Notes: generated by a model from the sequence alone, not told the origin. A DNA stretch of 34,519 nt from Alphaproteobacteria bacterium (GCA_017480385.1 JAFVAT010000011.1:1-34519), one strand, 5' to 3'; shown: positions 11,734 through 22,157, counted from the first letter of the stretch. Made by a program: numbers and translations.

Positions 11734-12107
11734 CCCCGCCGCCGCAGAAACAATTCTTCATCTGTAACTGACAAATTCTTTCAGTCCAAAAACGTCTCTT
11801 AGAAAAAAGGAGCCGTCTTTATCTTTTTTATTAGGGGCTTTCTCATCAAAATACAATTTTATTTTTTCAGATATAAAAGAATATACATAACATACATTAT
11901 TTTTTGTATTTTTATGTAATTATTCAAAGTACATTTAATTTCATTTCTTTAATAAAGATAACACTAAAAGCGGCCATGACTCTTGTTTTATTTGTGACAC
12001 TTTTGTTAAAAATATACCCCCCCCCCCCCATATCTTTATTGAGACGCATTTTTATTTGAATAAGAATGTTTTCGAATTATTTTTTTCTACAATTAGAGGG
12101 GGATTTT
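11734..12107. other. AT-rich intergenic region with a poly-C tract
   Basis: This 374-bp spacer has no credible gene. The middle (about 11860-11960) is extremely AT-rich. The right part holds the likely promoter of the Cys-rich repeat gene, including candidate -35 elements TTGTGA (11992-11997) and TTGTTA (12003-12008), a 13-C run, and a ribosome-binding site GAGGGGG just before the ATG at 12108. No clear terminator for the mscS gene is visible. Confidence 0.6.
12017..12029. repeat. 13-cytosine homopolymer, putative phase-variation tract
   Basis: Thirteen consecutive C interrupt otherwise AT-rich DNA 79 bases before the start codon of the exported repeat protein. It lies between a possible -35 (TTGTTA, 12003-12008) and a possible -10 (TATCTT, 12031-12036). 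The spacer is now 22 bp; loss of about five C would give 17 bp. Such tracts mutate by slipped-strand mispairing, and poly-C promoter spacers control Neisseria surface proteins such as Opc. The promoter assignment is inference. Confidence 0.6.
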
Positions 12108-13235
12108 ATGAAAAAATTTCTAATACTATTTTTTGTCTCTATGGCGGTATTGTTTTGTACAAACACCGCTTTCGCCGCAATGGCGTGCAGAATGACGGAT
12201 CAACGGATTGACAGTACAGATGTCACCTGCCCGGACGGCTGCTATAAGAGCGGAAACAGCTGTTATACCTGCCCTGGGGGGCAAAAGTATTCAAACGGCA
12301 CATGCACTGCCTGTGAGGCAGGAACTTATTCTCCTTCACAATCTCTAGTTTGTACCGCCTGCGCTGCAGGGACTTATTCCGCTGCTGCAGGAGCTTCGGC
12401 CTGTACGGCTTGTCCGGCAGGACAGTATGCTTCCGGAAAGTGGAATACCCGCTGCACTGTTTGTGAAGCCGGAACATACGCTTCCGGAACACGCAACGCG
12501 TCCTGCACGACCTGTCCTGACGGAACCTATTCTGAGACAGGAGCGGCTTCTTGCACAGCCTGCCCGGCAGGAACATATGCTTATGGAAGGGGGAACATAT
12601 CCTGTGCGAAGTGTCAGGCGGGATATTTTGCTTCCGGAACAGGCAATGCTGACTGTGACGAGTGTCCTGCAGGAACGTATGCAAAAGAGGGGAGCGCTTC
12701 CTGTACAAAATGTCCCGCCGGAACATATGCTTCAGGTCCAGGGAATACTTCTTGCGAAGCCTGCCCCAGCGGTCAAACTTCGGACGAGGGAGCGTCCAGC
12801 TGTTTTTCGAGATCAGCAGTTTCCTGCTTGCCCGGTTATTATAACAAGGAGGGCTCTTGCACACCGTGCCGCTCAGGGACCTATTCTGGAGCAGGAGCCA
12901 CTTCTTGCACGGCTTGCCCAGCGGGAACGTATGCTTTCGGCACCGGCAACGCATCATGTACGGCCTGCCCTGACGGAACGTATGCCAGCAACGGAGGAGC
13001 TGACAGATGCATATCGTGTGGAACCATAAGTGTAACCAACGGTACCTGTACAAGCTGTTCCCCCGAAGACGGCACCTGCACCAAAGTCAGCTGCGGGGAC
13101 GGATACGTTGCCATACTCGGTACGTACATGCAAGCCTGCGTTCCGGATCCGGAAACACGAAAAAACACAGTCAAAGGTTCTTGTCCGGACGGATTCAAAA
13201 GATCAGATGTTGGTTGCTGCTGCACAAAGCAATGA
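12108..13235 (+). CDS. Exported Cys-rich tandem-repeat surface protein
   Basis: A 375-residue protein with a clear signal peptide (MKKFLILFFVSMAVLFCTN, cleavage near AFA-A). The body is about 13 tandem units of 16-17 residues, CxxCPAGTYASGxGNxS, from about residue 65 to 300. They alternate between a longer ASGTGNAS-type and a shorter KEGSAS-type ending. This is the ephrin-receptor-like/TNFR-like Cys-rich repeat that forms a disulfide ladder, common in eukaryotic-like surface proteins. The last 75 residues differ and end with SCPDGFKRSDVGCCCTKQ, a triple-Cys motif shared with the next gene. No membrane anchor is visible after the signal. I chose the ATG at 12108 for the GAGGGGG site and signal peptide. 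Expression may be set by the poly-C tract upstream. Confidence 0.88.
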   Translation: MKKFLILFFVSMAVLFCTNTAFAAMACRMTDQRIDSTDVTCPDGCYKSGNSCYTCPGGQKYSNGTCTACEAGTYSPSQSLVCTACAAGTYSAAAGASACTACPAGQYASGKWNTRCTVCEAGTYASGTRNASCTTCPDGTYSETGAASCTACPAGTYAYGRGNISCAKCQAGYFASGTGNADCDECPAGTYAKEGSASCTKCPAGTYASGPGNTSCEACPSGQTSDEGASSCFSRSAVSCLPGYYNKEGSCTPCRSGTYSGAGATSCTACPAGTYAFGTGNASCTACPDGTYASNGGADRCISCGTISVTNGTCTSCSPEDGTCTKVSCGDGYVAILGTYMQACVPDPETRKNTVKGSCPDGFKRSDVGCCCTKQ

Positions 13236-14082: not shown

Positions 14083-14634
14083 ATGACCGACCGGAACTTG
14101 ACAGATGAAGAATTAATGCGCAGAACGGCGCGCCATGATGCGGAAGCATTCCACATGCTGTTGACCCGTTATGAAAAAAGAGTTTTCGCATTGGCCTGGC
14201 GTCTTTGTTCAAACACAGCGGAGGCAGAAGATCTGGCGCAGGAAACGTTTTTAAAAATATGGCGCAATGCCGGTTTATGGCAGCCGCAGGCAAAGTTGGA
14301 AACATGGATTTATCGGGTTTTATACAACCTCTTCATTGACCAGCGGCGGCGCGTCAGGACACAGTCGGAGGAATTGACGCCGGATATTCGTTCCGATGAA
14401 GATACGCCGGAACAGGCTTTGATCAAAAAACGGGAGACAACGGAAATCAGCGAGGCGTTAAATGAGCTGCCCGACCGTCAGAAAGAAGCGCTGATTCTTT
14501 GCTATTACCAGGGAATGAAAGCGAAAGAGGCCGCCGATCTGTTGTCTGTTTCACAAAGCGCTCTGGAGGCTCTGCTGTTTCGGGCCCGTCAAACGTTGAA
14601 GGACAAACTGAGCAGAAGGAAAGGAACAAAATAA
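14083..14634 (+). CDS. ECF-family RNA polymerase sigma factor
   Basis: A 183-residue group 4 (ECF) sigma factor. Region 2 covers about 23-90, with EAEDLAQETFLKIWRNAG for core binding and -10 recognition, and WIYRVLYNLFIDQRRR. Region 4 covers about 127-177, with LPDRQKEALILCYYQGMKAK and EAADLLSVSQSALEALLFRA as the -35-binding helix-turn-helix. No region 1.1 or 3 is present, as expected. It is followed, with a TAATG overlap, by a one-pass anti-sigma-like protein and then a periplasmic metal-sensor-like protein, the order of CnrYXH-type systems. It probably drives its own operon and outer targets when metal is sensed. A candidate self-regulated promoter could not be defined. Confidence 0.93.
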   Translation: MTDRNLTDEELMRRTARHDAEAFHMLLTRYEKRVFALAWRLCSNTAEAEDLAQETFLKIWRNAGLWQPQAKLETWIYRVLYNLFIDQRRRVRTQSEELTPDIRSDEDTPEQALIKKRETTEISEALNELPDRQKEALILCYYQGMKAKEAADLLSVSQSALEALLFRARQTLKDKLSRRKGTK

Positions 14635-15020
14635 TGGACTTTGATTCTTTTGCACAAATGATACAAACTTTCGGCGCTTCCGCCGCACGTTGGGAAACCG
14701 ATCAGCCGGAGGCCACGGCACAATGGGCCAAAACACGGAAAGGAGCCAAGCTTTTACAGGCGGAAAAGATTCTGGATACCGAACTGGATTCCCTTCAGCC
14801 GCCGCTTTGCACCGGATTGATCGAACGCATTCAATCGGTCGTTATGAATGAAAAGACACAACGGCAAATAGTGCTGTTTTGGCGAATTTCGCCATGGGTC
14901 TCTTTTTTGTTTATGATCGGCGGATTTTATATGGGCTGGTACCAAAACCACCAGGACTTTATCAATACGCAAAGCTATTTCACAACAATGTTTGAAGATC
15001 TTAATTACGAACAATACTGA
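14634..15020 (+). CDS. Membrane anti-sigma factor (probable)
   Basis: A 128-residue protein with a cytoplasmic N-terminal region of about 80 residues, one membrane segment (about 84-102, WVSFLFMIGGFYMGW) and a short periplasmic tail. The N-terminus (FAQMIQTFGASAARWETDQP) has the F-x-L/M-I-x-x-(F/Y)-GA-x-x-x-RW pattern seen in alphaproteobacterial proteins coded after ECF sigma factors. Its ATG overlaps the sigma stop (TAATG), so equal amounts would be made, which fits a stoichiometric inhibitor. No zinc-binding HxxxCxxC motif is visible, so it is not a ZAS-type anti-sigma. Function is inferred mainly from position and topology. Confidence 0.7.
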   Translation: MDFDSFAQMIQTFGASAARWETDQPEATAQWAKTRKGAKLLQAEKILDTELDSLQPPLCTGLIERIQSVVMNEKTQRQIVLFWRISPWVSFLFMIGGFYMGWYQNHQDFINTQSYFTTMFEDLNYEQY

Positions 15021-15034
15021 CAAGGAGAAACACT

Positions 15035-15949
15035 ATGAATAAAAAAGTGCTGACAGCTTTAGGTATTTCGTTAGCCGTTAACTTTATTTTTATCGGCTTC
15101 GAAGCCTCCAGAATATATCACCGTCCGGCCTTTTCACATATTCCGCCGGCCAGACCAAGTTTTGCTTCGAAGCAAGGGCCTGAAAAATTCAGCTCGCCGG
15201 AACAAAAGCTGATGCGCGCTTCATTTAAAGAAGCCCTGAAAAATCATGCCCAAGAGATGAAAGAAGCCAAACAGGCCGTTGAAGAGGCTTTGAAAAAGGA
15301 ACCCTTTGACGCGGAAGAATTTAAAGCCGCCCTGCAAAAAGCCGCTGCGGTTCGCAGCACCGTTGATGCCGCCGTTCAGGAAAACATGGTCGAAATGCTG
15401 TCCAAAATGTCTTCGGAAGAGCGCCGGCGCTTTGCAGAACAATTTGGCAAACCGGACAAAGCTTTTAAAATGAAAAAAGACGAAAAGCAAAAGGATTTCC
15501 GTCCCGACCCTGAAAGAATCAAACCGCATCACAAAAAAGATTTCCGCCCGCGCGGCGAACACAAATCGGAATACTGCAAAGGCCCCCGTCCGCCAAAAGC
15601 AGAAGAAGGCATGATGCCGATGAAGAAAAAAGGCCCGCATCATTGCGGCTGTGATAAAAACGCTAAACATGGAAAAGAAGCGATGATGAAAAAGCCGATG
15701 AAAGACTGTAAGGGCCCGAAAGACGTTAAAGGTCCCAAAAAGCCGCCGATGCCGGACAAAGAAGCTGTTGCTGAGGCAAAAGACGCTCCTGAAGCAAAAG
15801 AGGCCGCCACAGTCCAAGCCGACAAAAAAGAAAAGGCAGAGAAAAAAAATATGGCCGTTCAAAAGCGTATCCGGCGCCGTGCGGCCAAGTCGAAAACACC
15901 GGAAACCGCAGCTCAGCCGGTTGTTTCCGCTCCCGCTGCCGCTGAATAA
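15035..15949 (+). CDS. Periplasmic heavy-metal sensor-like protein with a His/Cys/Met/Lys-rich tail
   Basis: A 304-residue protein: an N-terminal anchor (about 6-22, TALGISLAVNFIFIGFEASR), then a helical domain (about 52-140) of the CnrX/ZraP 'heavy-metal resistance' type, with EQKLMRASFKEALKNHAQEM, EEALKKEPFDAEEFKAALQK and LSKMSSEERRRFAEQF. An unusual 165-residue low-complexity extension follows, rich in Lys, Pro, His, Met and a few Cys (KPHHKKDFRP, MMPMKKKGPHHCGCDKNAKH, MMKKPMKDCKGP), and ends in an Ala/Lys/Pro tail. The extension could bind metal directly, but many of its residues are just Lys/Pro. It begins 14 bp after the anti-sigma gene with AAGGAG ahead of ATG. Its role would be to pass a periplasmic metal signal to the anti-sigma factor. 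Confidence 0.8.
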   Translation: MNKKVLTALGISLAVNFIFIGFEASRIYHRPAFSHIPPARPSFASKQGPEKFSSPEQKLMRASFKEALKNHAQEMKEAKQAVEEALKKEPFDAEEFKAALQKAAAVRSTVDAAVQENMVEMLSKMSSEERRRFAEQFGKPDKAFKMKKDEKQKDFRPDPERIKPHHKKDFRPRGEHKSEYCKGPRPPKAEEGMMPMKKKGPHHCGCDKNAKHGKEAMMKKPMKDCKGPKDVKGPKKPPMPDKEAVAEAKDAPEAKEAATVQADKKEKAEKKNMAVQKRIRRRAAKSKTPETAAQPVVSAPAAAE

Positions 15950-17418: not shown

Positions 17419-17447
17419 TTGACACAAGGGGGACTTCAAGGGATAAA
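17419..17447 (+). promoter_or_regulatory. Sigma-70 promoter of the seven-gene operon
   Basis: TTGACA (17419-17424), a 17-bp spacer and GATAAA (17442-17447) lie 34 bases before the methyltransferase start. This is the only strong promoter seen for the seven genes. Confidence 0.7.
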
Positions 17448-17480
17448 GTTTGATTCATGAAACTTTTTTAAGAGGACAAA

Positions 17481-18155
17481 ATGGAACAGATTGACACTTG
17501 GGCAAAGATCCAAAATGAAGAAGACCTTATGAACGATCACCACGCGCCGTTTTGGCGGGCGATGATTTCTCAAATGACAGAGGCTGATCTGCATAATGCT
17601 TCTGTTCTGGATTTCGGGTGCAATCAGGGCGGTTTCCTGCGCACATTATTCCGTATGAAGCCGTTTAAAAAAGGATTGGGCGTCGATTTGGCGGTCAAGT
17701 CTTTAGAAACAGCGGAAAATTTAAAGGGCAACATGCCTCTGCACTACACAACGCCGGATATTTTAAATTCAATGGAACACGAATTTGACACGGCCTTCAG
17801 CCATGATGTGATTTATCTGCTGCCCGATTTGAACGAACATGCGAATATCCTCAAACGTGTTTTAAAACCGAACGGCGTATACTATGCGGCGACCGGCTGT
17901 TATGCGGAAATGCCCCTGTGGCCGATTTGGAAAAAAGAAGTTGAAAGCTATTCCAATGTTCCTCTGCCCGATTATTCAATCAACGACTTTGCCAGAGCGT
18001 TCTGGAAAGCCGGATTTGATGTAGCCCTTCAGAAATGTATCCCGCAGGGGTTTGTTACTTGCTGGCCAGACAGAGAGGCTTACTTCCCTGAGGTAACGGA
18101 TTTCCTGAAATATTATGACTACAAGATCATTTTCCGTTTTTCAAAAAAGGACTGA
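17481..18155 (+). CDS. SAM-dependent class I methyltransferase
   Basis: A 224-residue Rossmann-fold methyltransferase. Motif I is SVLDFGCNQGGFLRTLF (about 39-55), the acidic end of strand 2 is GLGVDLAVKSLETAE, and motif IV is FDTAFSHDVIYLLPDL with a following ILKRVLKPNGVYY, as in methyltransferase_11/25 enzymes. The C-terminal third (PLWPIWKKEVESYSNVPLPD) probably shapes the substrate site. The acceptor cannot be told from sequence. It is the first gene of a seven-gene operon, with its own promoter and AGAGG before the ATG. Four bases separate its stop from the next small ORF. Confidence 0.88.
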   Translation: MEQIDTWAKIQNEEDLMNDHHAPFWRAMISQMTEADLHNASVLDFGCNQGGFLRTLFRMKPFKKGLGVDLAVKSLETAENLKGNMPLHYTTPDILNSMEHEFDTAFSHDVIYLLPDLNEHANILKRVLKPNGVYYAATGCYAEMPLWPIWKKEVESYSNVPLPDYSINDFARAFWKAGFDVALQKCIPQGFVTCWPDREAYFPEVTDFLKYYDYKIIFRFSKKD

Positions 18156-18159
18156 TGCG

Positions 18160-18288
18160 ATGACTTTTCCCGAAGGACAGCCGTTTATCCCCGATGAAAA
18201 AGACAATACGCCGCCTTGTCAAAAATCAGCGGAACATATGGAAAAACTGGCCCAAAAAACAGAGAATAAAAATGACAAAGACGCCTGA
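18160..18288 (+). CDS. 42-aa peptide ORF inside the operon
   Basis: A 42-codon frame from ATG 18160 to TGA 18286-18288, with AAGGA eight bases ahead (in the end of the methyltransferase gene). It overlaps the start of the hydrolase by 17 bases. The peptide, MTFPEGQPFIPDEKDNTPPC and then QKSAEHMEKLAQKTENKNDK, has a proline-rich front with one Cys and a charged helical tail. The spacing and overlap match the rest of the operon, which favours real translation. No family is recognised. It might be a carrier, adaptor or substrate peptide, or only a leader that couples translation. Confidence 0.5.
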   Translation: MTFPEGQPFIPDEKDNTPPCQKSAEHMEKLAQKTENKNDKDA

Positions 18289-19078
18289 AATTAAAAGCTG
18301 GAAATATTACCAAAGCAATCCTGAAAAAAGGCCGGATTGTCTGATTTTTATGTTGCACGGCTGCGGCGGCAATGCGGACGATATTTTAAAGCTTGCTCCT
18401 CAAATCAAAAAGCAAATCGGAAATAAAAACTTCGTTGCCGTCGCTCCCGACGCTTTTTTGTCGTCCGTGGAAGGAAATAATGTCTATCAGTGGTTCGATA
18501 TTGAAAACAACTATGCCAAGTCTTTGTTTTCCAAACCTTATACCGATTTATCCGAACAGGAAAAAAGTCGTTTTTCCGCAATGACAGAAGGGGAAAACGG
18601 CATGAAAGCGGCTTCTGAAACATTGAACGAGTTCCTTGATTTCTGTCAGAAAAAATTCGGTTTAAAAGATTCTCAGACTGTCATATTCGGCTATTCCCAA
18701 GGCGCAATGCAGGCGTTGGATATGGGCATCAGCCGTAAAAAGCCGGTTAAATCAATTGTCTGCGTATCGGGCTGCCTCATTCCTCCGGATCAGCAAGCAA
18801 TCAGAAAAGAGGTGACAAAAGGCGTCTGTCCGGAAATCCTGATGCTTCATGGCACCAAAGATAACGTAATAGATATCAATGCTGCCGAACAAACGGCAAA
18901 GGCACTGAGCGGTGCCGGTTTTAAAGCTCGCCTTGTCCGCCAAAACGGACTGGGTCACGGCCGCGGACAGGAAGCAGCTCTGTTTTGGGAAAAGGCGGCC
19001 TATCACACGGCGAAACAAGCGGCAAAAACGACTCCTGATCTGATAAAAACTCACACGAACCTCAGAGGCGGCAGATGA
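18272..19078 (+). CDS. Alpha/beta-hydrolase, phospholipase/carboxylesterase type
   Basis: A 268-residue esterase-like hydrolase. The oxyanion-hole strand is LIFMLHGCGGNADDI, the nucleophile elbow is VIFGYSQGAMQALDM (Ser in GYSQGA), the acid follows LMLHGTKDNVIDINAA (Asp), and the histidine is in QNGLGHGRGQEA. The catalytic triad is thus complete, as in PF02230 (phospholipase/carboxylesterase) enzymes. No signal peptide, so cytoplasmic. I chose the ATG at 18272 (MTKTPEIKSW) because upstream residues of this frame are a Lys/Arg-rich shadow of the 42-aa ORF. It overlaps the transketolase start by 4 bases (ATGA). The substrate is unknown. Confidence 0.87.
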   Translation: MTKTPEIKSWKYYQSNPEKRPDCLIFMLHGCGGNADDILKLAPQIKKQIGNKNFVAVAPDAFLSSVEGNNVYQWFDIENNYAKSLFSKPYTDLSEQEKSRFSAMTEGENGMKAASETLNEFLDFCQKKFGLKDSQTVIFGYSQGAMQALDMGISRKKPVKSIVCVSGCLIPPDQQAIRKEVTKGVCPEILMLHGTKDNVIDINAAEQTAKALSGAGFKARLVRQNGLGHGRGQEAALFWEKAAYHTAKQAAKTTPDLIKTHTNLRGGR

Positions 19079-20016
19079 CAGCCAGACTGGATTGGTCCCC
19101 TTTTACAGACCACGGCACTTTATCCGCGCTTGATTTCGCGCAGGAACATGAAAAAGCCCGATTGAATGAAATCGCGGCCAAAATGCGCTTCAATGTCATG
19201 GAAATGATGTGCGCCGCCGATTACGGTCACCCTGCGTCCTGCTTAGGGCTCAGCGATTTATTTACGGCTTTGTTTTTCGGGGAAATAATGCGCTGCAATC
19301 CGGCGGATCCGATGTGGGAGGGCCGCGATCGGCTGGTTGTTTCCAACGGGCATATTTCCGCTTTGCTGTACACGGCGCTTTCCATGGCTGGATATTTTCC
19401 TGCTTCAGACCTGAAAAATCATGCCCGCGCCGGCGGATTGCCCGGACACCCGCACCGCGACCCGCAAAGAGGCGTCGAGCTTTCCTCCGGCTCTTTGGGA
19501 CAGGGGGTCTCTGTTGCCGTCGGCATGGCCGTCGCTTTAAAGCCGCTGCGCCGCGATGTGTTCCTGACCACTTCGGACGGAGAAATTCAGGAAGGGCAAG
19601 TTTGGGAAGCTCTGCAAGCCGCGGTAAAATACAAGCTGTCCAACTTAAAAATCTTTCTGGACTGCAACGGAATTCAAAATTCAGGGCGCACTGCCGATAT
19701 TATGCCCGCCGGCGATTTAGAAAAGCTTTATACGGCCATGGGGTTTGAAGTTATTGTCTGCGACCGTGCCTGCGCTTTTGAAATTGCACAAGCCGTTCAA
19801 AAGCGAAAAGCGGAGGACAGGCCTCTTTTATGCCTGCTGTACACAATCGGCGGCAAAGGCGTTTCCTATATGGAAAACGATCCGTTCTGGCATGATGAAA
19901 TCCCGACCGGAGAGTTAAGGCAAAAGGCTTTGACGGAATTAACCGCTCAAAAGCAAAAGGCGTCCTCTTGGAAAACCTTTTTAACGCAAATGAAAGACGC
20001 GCCATGCCGACAATGA
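19075..20016 (+). CDS. Transketolase, N-terminal (TPP-binding) subunit
   Basis: A 313-residue split-transketolase N-half. Visible blocks are ADYGHPASCLGLSDLFTALF, VVSNGHISALLYTALSMAGY, GLPGHPHRDPQRGVELSSGS with LGQGVSVAVGMAVALK, and the TPP/metal motif SDGEIQEGQVWEALQAA...FLDCNGIQNSG. The usual GDGE is SDGE here, a mild change. It ends as N-halves do, ENDPFWHDEIP. Together with the next gene it makes a two-subunit enzyme of transketolase type that moves a C2 ketol group between sugar phosphates. Split forms are common in secondary and polysaccharide metabolism. The start overlaps the previous gene by 4 bases. Confidence 0.92.
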   Translation: MTARLDWSPFTDHGTLSALDFAQEHEKARLNEIAAKMRFNVMEMMCAADYGHPASCLGLSDLFTALFFGEIMRCNPADPMWEGRDRLVVSNGHISALLYTALSMAGYFPASDLKNHARAGGLPGHPHRDPQRGVELSSGSLGQGVSVAVGMAVALKPLRRDVFLTTSDGEIQEGQVWEALQAAVKYKLSNLKIFLDCNGIQNSGRTADIMPAGDLEKLYTAMGFEVIVCDRACAFEIAQAVQKRKAEDRPLLCLLYTIGGKGVSYMENDPFWHDEIPTGELRQKALTELTAQKQKASSWKTFLTQMKDAPCRQ

Positions 20017-20924
20017 TGGAAATTTTTTCAGAAGAACTTCTGAACGCCGGGCAGCAAAATCCGAATATTGTTGCTTTATCCGCCGATGTGCGCGGTTCAA
20101 CCGGATTGAAATTATTCGCCGAAGCTTTTCCCGACAGATACTTTGAAATGGGCATTTGCGAACAAAATATGATCGGTGCGGCGGCAGGCATGGCTCTGGC
20201 GGGCAAAAAAGCCGTTGCCTCCAGTTATGCCTGTTTCAGTCCGGGCCGAACGTGGGAACAGATCCGCAATGCCGTCTGCATGGACAAGGCTGATGTTAAA
20301 ATTATCGGAGCCCACATCGGCGTCGGATCGGGACGCAACGGACCGACGCACCAATCTTTTGAGGATATTGCCTTAACAGCCTGCCTGCCTCATTTGAGCG
20401 TTTACAGCCCCGCAACAAAACAGGACGTCCGTCTGTGCGCAAAAGAAATGCTGAACACATTCGGACCGGCTTATATCCGTCTGTCTGCAGAACTCTGCCC
20501 TGAGCCAGCGGAATACCGCTGCAGTCTTAAGGGGCTGTCTCTTTTAAAACACGGAAAAGATTTCGCCGTTATCGGCACGGGCGGAATTTTAAGAAAAGCA
20601 TTAAAAGCCGTTAAAATATTTGAAGAAAACTCTCCTTTTCAGACTGCCGTTTTTAATATGGTCCGTCTAGATTCCCTGAACGGTGAAATTTTTGACCCCT
20701 TAAAACATTTCAAGGCCGTTCTCTGTCTGGAGGAACATCAAACAAACGGCGGTCTGGCCTCATTAATCGCTCCCTTTTTCGCGGCAGATAAAACTTTGCC
20801 GCCGCTGTACCGCATGGGGATCGATCTGCGCTTCGGAGCCTCTATGGACGCCGAAGATTTATATTCTTTCCTGAATTTGTCTGAACAAAACATTTTATCC
20901 CGTTTGACTGAAATTGCCGCATGA
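20004..20924 (+). CDS. Transketolase, C-terminal subunit
   Basis: A roughly 306-residue pyrimidine-binding half. It has VALSADVRGSTGL, the catalytic-Glu motif YFEMGICEQNMIGAAAGMAL, then ASSYACFSPGRTWEQIRNAV and GAHIGVGSGRNGPTHQSFED, all typical of split transketolase beta subunits, and a transketolase C-terminal domain (about 185-300, VIGTGGILRKAL...LCLEEHQTNGG). The ATG at 20004 or those at 20013 and 20016 can start it; all lie in or at the end of the N-subunit gene, so translation is coupled. An ATG 12 codons upstream is less likely. It overlaps the next gene by 4 bases. Confidence 0.92.
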   Translation: MPTMMEIFSEELLNAGQQNPNIVALSADVRGSTGLKLFAEAFPDRYFEMGICEQNMIGAAAGMALAGKKAVASSYACFSPGRTWEQIRNAVCMDKADVKIIGAHIGVGSGRNGPTHQSFEDIALTACLPHLSVYSPATKQDVRLCAKEMLNTFGPAYIRLSAELCPEPAEYRCSLKGLSLLKHGKDFAVIGTGGILRKALKAVKIFEENSPFQTAVFNMVRLDSLNGEIFDPLKHFKAVLCLEEHQTNGGLASLIAPFFAADKTLPPLYRMGIDLRFGASMDAEDLYSFLNLSEQNILSRLTEIAA

Positions 20925-21820
20925 CTGAATTGGAACAAACTCTTTACCGTCTGATCACACGCAAAAGCTTTCGCAAGTGGGCTCTGCCGCCGAACGCCGC
21001 GGAACGGATCAAAACCGCAGTTGCCCTTTGCACGGCAGAAAACAAACCGTTAAACTTCGTTTTTGAATTCGGCGGCTATAAGCTATGGCGCCTGCCTTCC
21101 GCCCCCTATCCCGATTTGGCGGAAACATATATGCTGCGCCACTATGCCGCTTATCTGCAGCCGATTGCCGAGGCTTATCCGCCCGGAGCAAACATGTATT
21201 TTGCTTCCGATGACTGCGTTGTGGAACGCATGAACAACATCAAGCCGGAAGCATTAGAAATTTATGCCGCCGCTTTTCGAAACTGTTTAAAACAAATTGA
21301 ACCGGAACTGCCCGACAATATCAAAATGTCTTATATCCGGCTGGCGGAGCTTTACCCGTCCCGTAAAGAATTGGAGGACGAATTGAAGATTGCCTTTGCC
21401 GACAACATGAAAAAATTTGAAACGTGGACACCGGAAAAAAAAGACAGAATGCTTAAACGCGCTCAATTAAACTTTTGTCCCTCCGGTCCCTTAGCCGCCG
21501 AGGATTTATCTGATATTTCCGAAACGGAACTTTCCCTGCGGCTGATTACCGGCGCCGTTTATCATGATGCTTTTGAAGATTGCTCCCGCCGCAGAGAATT
21601 TGTCGTGGGAAAAGACAGGATTCTTTTGTTCTGTACGCCTATTCCGGAAGCAGTCGCTATTGGCACAACAAAAGCCTCCGTCACAAAATTCTGGACCGGC
21701 GTCGGCGTGCTCGAAAACGGTTTGGAAAAAGTTCTGTCTCCTTCAGCATGGGAAAAAAACAAGAGGACAAAACATGAAAAAAATCATTTCGGCTCCTTCC
21801 CGCCCCAAAGCTCACTATAA
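20921..21820 (+). CDS. Putative isocyanide-synthase-like (DIT1/PvcA-like) protein
   Basis: A 299-residue soluble protein I cannot assign firmly. The segment LNFVFEFGGYK (about 44-54), PDLAE (64-68), then YLQPIAEAYPPGANMYFASDDCVV (in pieces, about 78-101) follows the order and spacing of the DIT1/PvcA family: an (L/P)-x-F-P-x-K strand, PD-x-AE, and YPPGA followed by SDG. In that family the enzyme (IsnA/PvcA) joins an amino acid and ribulose-5-phosphate to make an isonitrile. Differences from the family, for example GGYK for FPxK and SDD for SDG, are clear. The C-terminal KASVTKFWTGVGVLENG is not recognised. Its last 47 bases overlap the RidA gene in another frame. Confidence 0.4.
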   Translation: MTELEQTLYRLITRKSFRKWALPPNAAERIKTAVALCTAENKPLNFVFEFGGYKLWRLPSAPYPDLAETYMLRHYAAYLQPIAEAYPPGANMYFASDDCVVERMNNIKPEALEIYAAAFRNCLKQIEPELPDNIKMSYIRLAELYPSRKELEDELKIAFADNMKKFETWTPEKKDRMLKRAQLNFCPSGPLAAEDLSDISETELSLRLITGAVYHDAFEDCSRRREFVVGKDRILLFCTPIPEAVAIGTTKASVTKFWTGVGVLENGLEKVLSPSAWEKNKRTKHEKNHFGSFPPQSSL

Positions 21821-22157
21821 TAATGCCGTTGCCGCCGAAGGAAAGTTCTTGTTCATTGCTACGCAGCCCTCGACAGACTGGGAAACCGGCACGTTTTTAG
21901 ACGGCGATATTTATTTTCAAACGCAAAAAGCTCTGGAAAATATCGTTTATTTTCTCAGTCGGGAAAACATAACTTTGGACAATGTCGTTAAAATGGGAAT
22001 CTTTCTGGCTGACATCAACGATTTTGACGCGATGAACGAAGTTTACAACCGCTTTTTTCCTGATCCTGAAACGGCACCCGTTCGCTTTACCCTGCAAACG
22101 CCCTTCCCGAATAAAAAAATCAAAGTCGAATTTGAAGCTATCGCCGTTCTGCCCTGA
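21774..22157 (+). CDS. RidA/YjgF-family protein
   Basis: A 127-residue RidA/YER057c/UK114-type protein. The end APVRFTLQTPFPNKKIKVEF, with the arginine that in RidA binds the substrate carboxylate, followed by EAIAVLP, is diagnostic. The pattern YNNAVAAEGKFLFIATQPST and DIYFQTQKALENIVYFLSRE is also typical. RidA proteins hydrolyse reactive enamine/imine intermediates. Here it is the seventh and last gene of the operon, so it may protect against, or use, an imine intermediate of that pathway rather than do housekeeping. AAGAGGACAAA precedes the ATG. No clear terminator follows before the convergent metallopeptidase gene. Confidence 0.92.
   Translation: MKKIISAPSRPKAHYNNAVAAEGKFLFIATQPSTDWETGTFLDGDIYFQTQKALENIVYFLSRENITLDNVVKMGIFLADINDFDAMNEVYNRFFPDPETAPVRFTLQTPFPNKKIKVEFEAIAVLP

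Follow-up and report, generated by a model that had tools for sequence, protein, structure and literature searches.

A possible metal-controlled accessory operon combining a split transketolase with a PvcA-superfamily protein in an alphaproteobacterium

The DNA analysed here, hereafter the window, is a stretch of 34,519 nucleotides from Alphaproteobacteria bacterium (GCA_017480385.1, JAFVAT010000011.1:1-34519), and our subject is a set of seven genes in it (17481-22157, plus strand) that includes a split transketolase and a PvcA-like protein. We consider it possible, at somewhat below an even chance, that these genes form an accessory operon that is inherited as one block and responds to a shortage of iron or a related metal by making a small molecule. 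The best clue to their function is a putative operator that the operon has in common with the iron-uptake genes feoAB. This site is absent from the original prediction, which had proposed a pathway to a tailored small molecule, possibly an isonitrile; the operon is more interesting for its regulation, and less certain in its chemistry, than was held there.

The genes are tightly packed and encode, in order, a class I S-adenosylmethionine-dependent methyltransferase of 224 amino acids (aa) (17481-18155; PF13847, E 2.3e-12), a small protein of 42 aa (18160-18288), an alpha/beta hydrolase (Abhydrolase_2) of 268 aa with a GYSQG nucleophile elbow (18272-19078; PF02230, E 1.3e-21), the thiamine diphosphate (ThDP)-binding N-terminal half of a split transketolase (19075-20016; PF00456, E 4.6e-42), its C-terminal half with the Pyr and C domains (20004-20924; PF02779, E 5e-37, and PF02780), a 299-aa protein assigned to the FGGYK subgroup of the PvcA/isonitrile-synthase superfamily (20921-21820; PF05141), and a RidA/YjgF-family protein of 127 aa (21774-22157; PF01042, Ribonuc_L-PSP, E 6.4e-25). 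Thus, all seven open reading frames (ORFs) of the originally predicted operon were found in place by sequence reading and an ORF check, and six of them have Pfam matches. The junctions are, successively, a 4-bp gap and overlaps of 17, 4, 13, 4 and 47 bp, so that the predicted range of gaps and overlaps from 4 up to 47 bp holds with the refined limits. With no intergenic gap wider than 4 bp, the seven genes are very likely to be transcribed as one unit. The 47-bp overlap between the PvcA-like and RidA genes is lineage-specific: the PvcA-like protein has 299 aa in the window and about 285 aa in the relatives, where the reading frame stops at about residue 284-288, close to or right at the start of RidA.

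Purifying selection was found on six genes by the ratio of non-synonymous to synonymous substitution rates (dN/dS), which covered all except the hydrolase, whose start site agrees with those of the relatives. Against the related genome G006, dN/dS was 0.03-0.13 for the methyltransferase (0.03), both transketolase halves, the PvcA-like protein and RidA. For the small ORF, the value was about 0.34 in its own frame versus 1.2 and 2.3 in the two other frames; synonymous change exceeds non-synonymous change in its own frame only. The core of the 42-aa protein, consisting of FPEG close to the N-terminus and a central PC..SAE.MEKL, is kept in all five genomes that carry the operon, and no Pfam match was obtained when it was scanned as a longer, 57-aa reading. 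The RidA protein is conserved at 74-81% in the relatives, and the operon copy contains the Arg (PVRFT) and Glu (KVEFEA) residues that we take to be characteristic of RidA.

The distribution of the operon was compared in 12 genomes of the family, with G000 denoting the genome of the window, which is 95% complete. The gene-neighbourhood survey showed identical gene content and order in four others: G003, G004, G008, which belongs to a different genus, and G006, whose copy is interrupted by contig ends that cut the hydrolase. The PvcA-like gene and the methyltransferase gene occur in exactly the same five of the 12 genomes and are absent together from the other seven, including three genomes of the same genus that are 98% complete. 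The methyltransferase is 80-91% identical between genomes. This perfect co-occurrence, together with the shared absences, indicates an accessory set that behaves as one unit.

The relatives are assemblies of sheep-rumen or uncultured Alphaproteobacteria. A profile search of assembled genome contigs returned the same close relatives, the matches of a class-wide profile search over 385 genomes were confined to the genus, and no relatives were found among the viral contigs scanned. Besides canonical synthases, a phylum-wide PF05141 search yielded two distant proteins (in G081 and G745), in whose listed neighbourhoods no transketolase was recognised by eye. No paper joining an isonitrile synthase with a transketolase was found in a literature search that left most subscription papers outside. 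The pairing of a transketolase with a PvcA-like protein, as well as the FGGYK subgroup, thus appear to be undescribed in the searched literature, whose coverage is incomplete.

The putative operator and its sharing with feoAB

A putative promoter was read from the sequence at 17419-17449 on the plus strand, with TTGACA at 17419-17424 and a weak -10 element (GATAAA/TAAAGT) at 17443-17449; TTGAC-type boxes are similarly placed in G006 and G008. The single promoter claimed originally is plausible, but it is missing from the sites listed by a consensus promoter scan, which found promoter-like sites in the region no more often than in shuffled sequence. Overlapping the -10 element is a 22-bp imperfect palindrome, AAAGTTTGATTCATGAAACTTT (17445-17466, unstranded), which we regard as a putative operator. 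In the upstream alignment, this block is kept in all five operon genomes, amid poorly conserved DNA.

The pattern AAAGTTTGANNNNNNAAACTTT has two exact matches in G000: one is the operon site, and another lies directly before feoA-feoB. Over the 12 genomes, 12 exact matches were found, which all belong either to the operon (4) or to feoAB (8), while the expected number is 0.01 per genome, or about 0.1 in total. Weaker copies with one or two mismatches precede feoAB in G006 and G008 and the operon in G006, and the palindrome stands ahead of feoAB in ten genomes. When a weight matrix was built from the feoA sites only, the operon site took the top score of the window (20.9, with the runner-up at 13.5). 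In a random genome of equal size, about one or two matrix scores as high as 20.9 may occur, and it is therefore the position and the conservation of the site that carry weight. Operator-like matches with two or three mismatches exist elsewhere in G000; they were left uncounted and, where inspected, lie inside genes or off gene starts.

A third group of sites was found in eight genomes, in some of them as two sites in tandem, before the gene of a protein of about 219 aa (L091:2009-2671 on contig G000:C29, L021:3510-4169, L093, L095, L097, L099, L101 and L104). This protein has no Pfam match and gave weak, partial matches only against PDB sequences. In G006, its gene directly follows the operon. 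The protein is probably a third member of the regulon.

One DtxR-family regulator was detected in the genome, on contig G000:C23 at 57.8 kb; no Fur-family protein was detected there, in a search that did not extend to Rrf2-type iron regulators. The palindrome shared with feoAB, the presence of a DtxR-type regulator and the lack of a detected Fur together point to metal-dependent repression, and the operon is probably under metal control, with iron as the likeliest metal. Iron repression has been reported for pvcA-D of P. aeruginosa (PMC3639982).

The PvcA-like protein and the split transketolase

The 299-aa protein, predicted as isonitrile-synthase-like, matches PF05141 (DIT1_PvcA) with an E-value of 1.8e-7 and 31.4 bits, above the gathering cut-off of 26.4, and no other well-known family was matched. 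The G003 copy scores 29.8 bits, and the G008 copy scores 18.6 bits, under the cut-off. With a profile of the family and one Rhizobium relative, the best solved proteins are PIsnA (9DHM, 9DH4) and PvcA (3E59), at E about 1e-6. An AlphaFold model made from five sequences has low confidence (mean predicted local distance difference test, pLDDT, of 43). Its top structural matches are nevertheless PvcA (Z 10.6) and PIsnA (Z 9.9), followed by the tyrosyl-tRNA synthetases (TyrRS) with Z of at most 7.2; it is because PvcA and PIsnA stand clearly above the other matches that this low-confidence model was used, as supportive rather than firm evidence of the fold. From the sequence and the model, the protein very probably belongs to the PvcA superfamily.

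The two ends of the protein differ in what they preserve. The N-terminal half is retained, and its K54, AE and SD positions align with the canonical synthases, whereas the motifs IRLSIHP and TPWHG, common to three canonical synthases, are replaced in every operon copy: the aligned positions read AVAIGTTK (AIAIGTTK in one copy) and TKFWTGVG, and the stretch between them is shortened. This replacement rests on a MAFFT alignment, the profile-profile alignment covering the N-terminal half and not the IRLSIHP/TPWHG stretch. Over the whole length, identity to PvcA, IsnA and PIsnA is about 15-16%, and the curated NCBI equivalog of tyrosine isonitrile synthase, NF045653 (TyIsonSynPvcA), gave 17.4 bits versus a cut-off of 600. 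It was also found that the operon proteins contain no PvcB/IsnB-type iron/2-oxoglutarate oxygenase domain in Pfam; canonical synthases in L027 and L028 adjoin an oxygenase-like gene, as judged by eye. Judged by its sequence, then, the protein is not a canonical isonitrile synthase, and an isonitrile product cannot be assumed because the C-terminal motifs are replaced. The original interpretation is partly supported, by the superfamily membership and by the conservation of the operon as a unit.

In the split transketolase, the domains PF00456, PF02779 and PF02780 are all present, and the ThDP/metal motif DGE...N is intact. The closest solved structures are those of the Carboxydothermus split enzyme (the 6YAK N-chain for the N half and 6YAJ for the C half). 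The residues corresponding to R358 and R520 of the Escherichia coli transketolase (EcTK) are Met and Ala, respectively, in all four copies compared, and that of D469 is Asn in three copies and Asp in one; the R358 equivalent was placed by a hand count from the SAD motif, the MAFFT alignment being wrong there. Mutation of EcTK at R358, D469 and R520 is reported to improve the acceptance of aromatic aldehydes (PMC7661550). G000 also encodes two further transketolases, one full-length and one split, as well as a DXS-like protein. The second split enzyme lies within a cluster (L020, G000:C5, 13000-26000) that resembles surface-polysaccharide synthesis by eye, with ligase-like, ketoacyl-synthase-like and glycosyltransferase-like proteins. 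Because the phosphate-site arginines R358 and R520 are lost and a full-length transketolase is encoded elsewhere, a supply of ribulose-5-phosphate, the role originally proposed for the operon enzyme, is unlikely.

Proposed pathway and alternatives

A scheme that would connect these genes is as follows. Under plentiful metal, a DtxR-type metalloregulator would repress the operon and feoAB. The two transketolase halves would form a heterotetramer and move a two-carbon ketol unit onto an acceptor, probably a non-phosphorylated one. In chemistry new to the PvcA fold, the PvcA-like enzyme may condense this ketose with an amine to an imine, whose cleavage would leave the nitrogen with a one-carbon group (isonitrile or formyl type) or a related fragment. 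RidA would hydrolyse imines or enamines that arise as stray by-products, the tailoring of an acid or ester would fall to the methyltransferase and the hydrolase, and the 42-aa protein may be an accessory or a carrier. The product would bind iron or replace an iron-costly function, rather than act as a TonB-imported siderophore. We infer every chemical step of this scheme, while the enzyme families and the common control site are shown or strongly suggested.

Several points weigh against this scheme, beginning with the low pLDDT of the model. The replaced C-terminal motifs leave the product chemistry conjectural. The assignment of the DtxR homologue as the binder of the palindrome is correlative, and the sensed metal could be Mn or another one. 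The Rhizobium relatives stand in a different biosynthetic context, with no transketolase listed. No exporter or importer was found by Pfam among the operon proteins, and no TonB receptor plug domain (PF07715) was found in G000, G006 or G008, while it is present in G003 and G004. A secreted iron carrier would hence be without the usual import route, and a classical secreted siderophore is unlikely for G000. In its fullest form, the scheme describes an undescribed iron-responsive pathway of anaerobic gut bacteria, in which a dedicated split transketolase makes the ketose co-substrate for a new PvcA-fold subgroup, whose product would be a metal ligand carrying an isonitrile or related one-carbon nitrogen group; we regard this specific form as doubtful.

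Among the alternatives, the one that survives best, though still rather unlikely, is that the PvcA-like protein has left isonitrile chemistry and makes an intracellular product of another kind, e.g., a modified amino acid, a cofactor or a metal-sparing compound. The replaced motifs, the shorter stretch between them, the lack of a transporter in the operon and of a TonB plug in the genome, and the report that Dit1, another PF05141 protein, is not an isocyanide synthase (PMC7345447) are all consistent with it. However, the catalytic role of IRLSIHP and TPWHG is presumed rather than established here, and the N-terminal half is retained with its K54, AE and SD positions aligned.

The canonical isonitrile pathway, namely a PvcA-type synthase whose substrates are an aromatic amino acid and ribulose-5-phosphate, the latter provided through the transketolase, followed by methyl and ester tailoring, is improbable. 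The PF05141 match, the PvcA and PIsnA folds as the closest ones, and an operator in common with iron-uptake genes, comparable to the iron-repressed pvc genes, speak for it. Against them stand the replaced motifs, the missing PvcB/IsnB oxygenase, the transketolase without the two phosphate-site arginines, and the full-length transketolase elsewhere. Least probable of all is a cell-surface sugar or polysaccharide cassette, in which the split transketolase would build a branched or unusual ketose to be decorated by the PvcA-like enzyme and the methyltransferase: a heptose/polysaccharide-type operon at the same chromosomal site in G005, genes resembling O-acylation functions after the operon in G006 and the second split transketolase in its polysaccharide-like cluster, judged by eye, would fit, but the operon has neither a glycosyltransferase nor a nucleotidyltransferase, a metal-type operator is unexpected for such a cassette, and the operon neighbours vary between genomes.

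If the reading of a metal-controlled accessory pathway is true, PvcA-fold chemistry may reach past aromatic amino acids and ribulose-5-phosphate, and the operon may reveal how rumen and gut Alphaproteobacteria cope with scarce iron. Isonitrile-type metabolites are potent metal ligands that are hard to find by chemistry alone, and the operon offers a testable gene set together with a candidate regulator and low iron as the condition for its induction.

Surrounding chromosome and known systems

In G005, the region between an 85-aa gene and gyrB (L055:2487-9797) holds the heptose/polysaccharide-type operon in place of the seven-gene set, which suggests that this spot exchanges gene cassettes. In G006 (L065:1391-2278), unlike the other genomes, the operon is divergent from the gene of a His-rich cation-efflux transporter of the cation diffusion facilitator (CDF) type. 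Upstream of the operon in the window (14083-15949) are encoded an extracytoplasmic function (ECF) sigma factor, a 129-aa protein without a Pfam match (a possible anti-sigma factor) and a Metal_resist (PF13801) protein that has a long tail rich in Cys, His and Lys. Across the genus, the sigma factor and the Metal_resist protein stay close to the 85-aa gene whether the operon is present or not, and this group is possibly a metal-sensing unit. The window also encodes two DUF6782 putative metallopeptidases (PF20573; 9613-10623 and 22208-23236) and a 389-aa Cys-rich protein matching ephrin-receptor-like and TNFR-like repeats (12066-13235; PF07699, E 2.5e-34), which is unusual for a bacterium. A protein that looks similar to the metallopeptidases adjoins another G000 locus (L010).

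Among the known systems, PvcA, IsnA and PIsnA (PF05141; PDB 3E59, 9DH4, 9DHM) resemble the window protein in the Pfam match, in the N-terminal K, AE and SD positions and as the best structural matches, and the iron repression of pvcA-D (PMC3639982) has its counterpart in the feoAB-type site of the operon. They differ in that the operon is without a PvcB-type oxygenase and has a split transketolase and RidA instead. Yeast Dit1, compared by description only, is likewise a PF05141 protein and is reported to make a non-isonitrile product (PMC7345447); it differs in belonging to a fungal spore-wall pathway with a P450 and without a transketolase.

The sole other FGGYK-type relative found is a plasmid protein of Rhizobium leguminosarum (L038), with 24.5% identity over 93%. 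Like the window protein, it lies in a biosynthesis-like operon, its neighbours being an aminotransferase, a methyltransferase, MetK and a major facilitator superfamily (MFS) transporter. In contrast, it has no Pfam match up to an E-value of 0.01, no transketolase or RidA is listed beside it, and its methyltransferase is not recognisably related to that of the operon beyond the fold. As for the transketolase, ChTK of Carboxydothermus (6YAJ/6YAK) is also a two-gene ThDP enzyme and is the best structure match for both halves, and the split enzyme SqwGH, which serves in sulfoquinovose degradation, draws its ketol units from sulfonated sugars (PMC11659671). The window enzyme differs from both in having Met and Ala at the positions of EcTK R358 and R520 and in its place within a biosynthesis-like operon.

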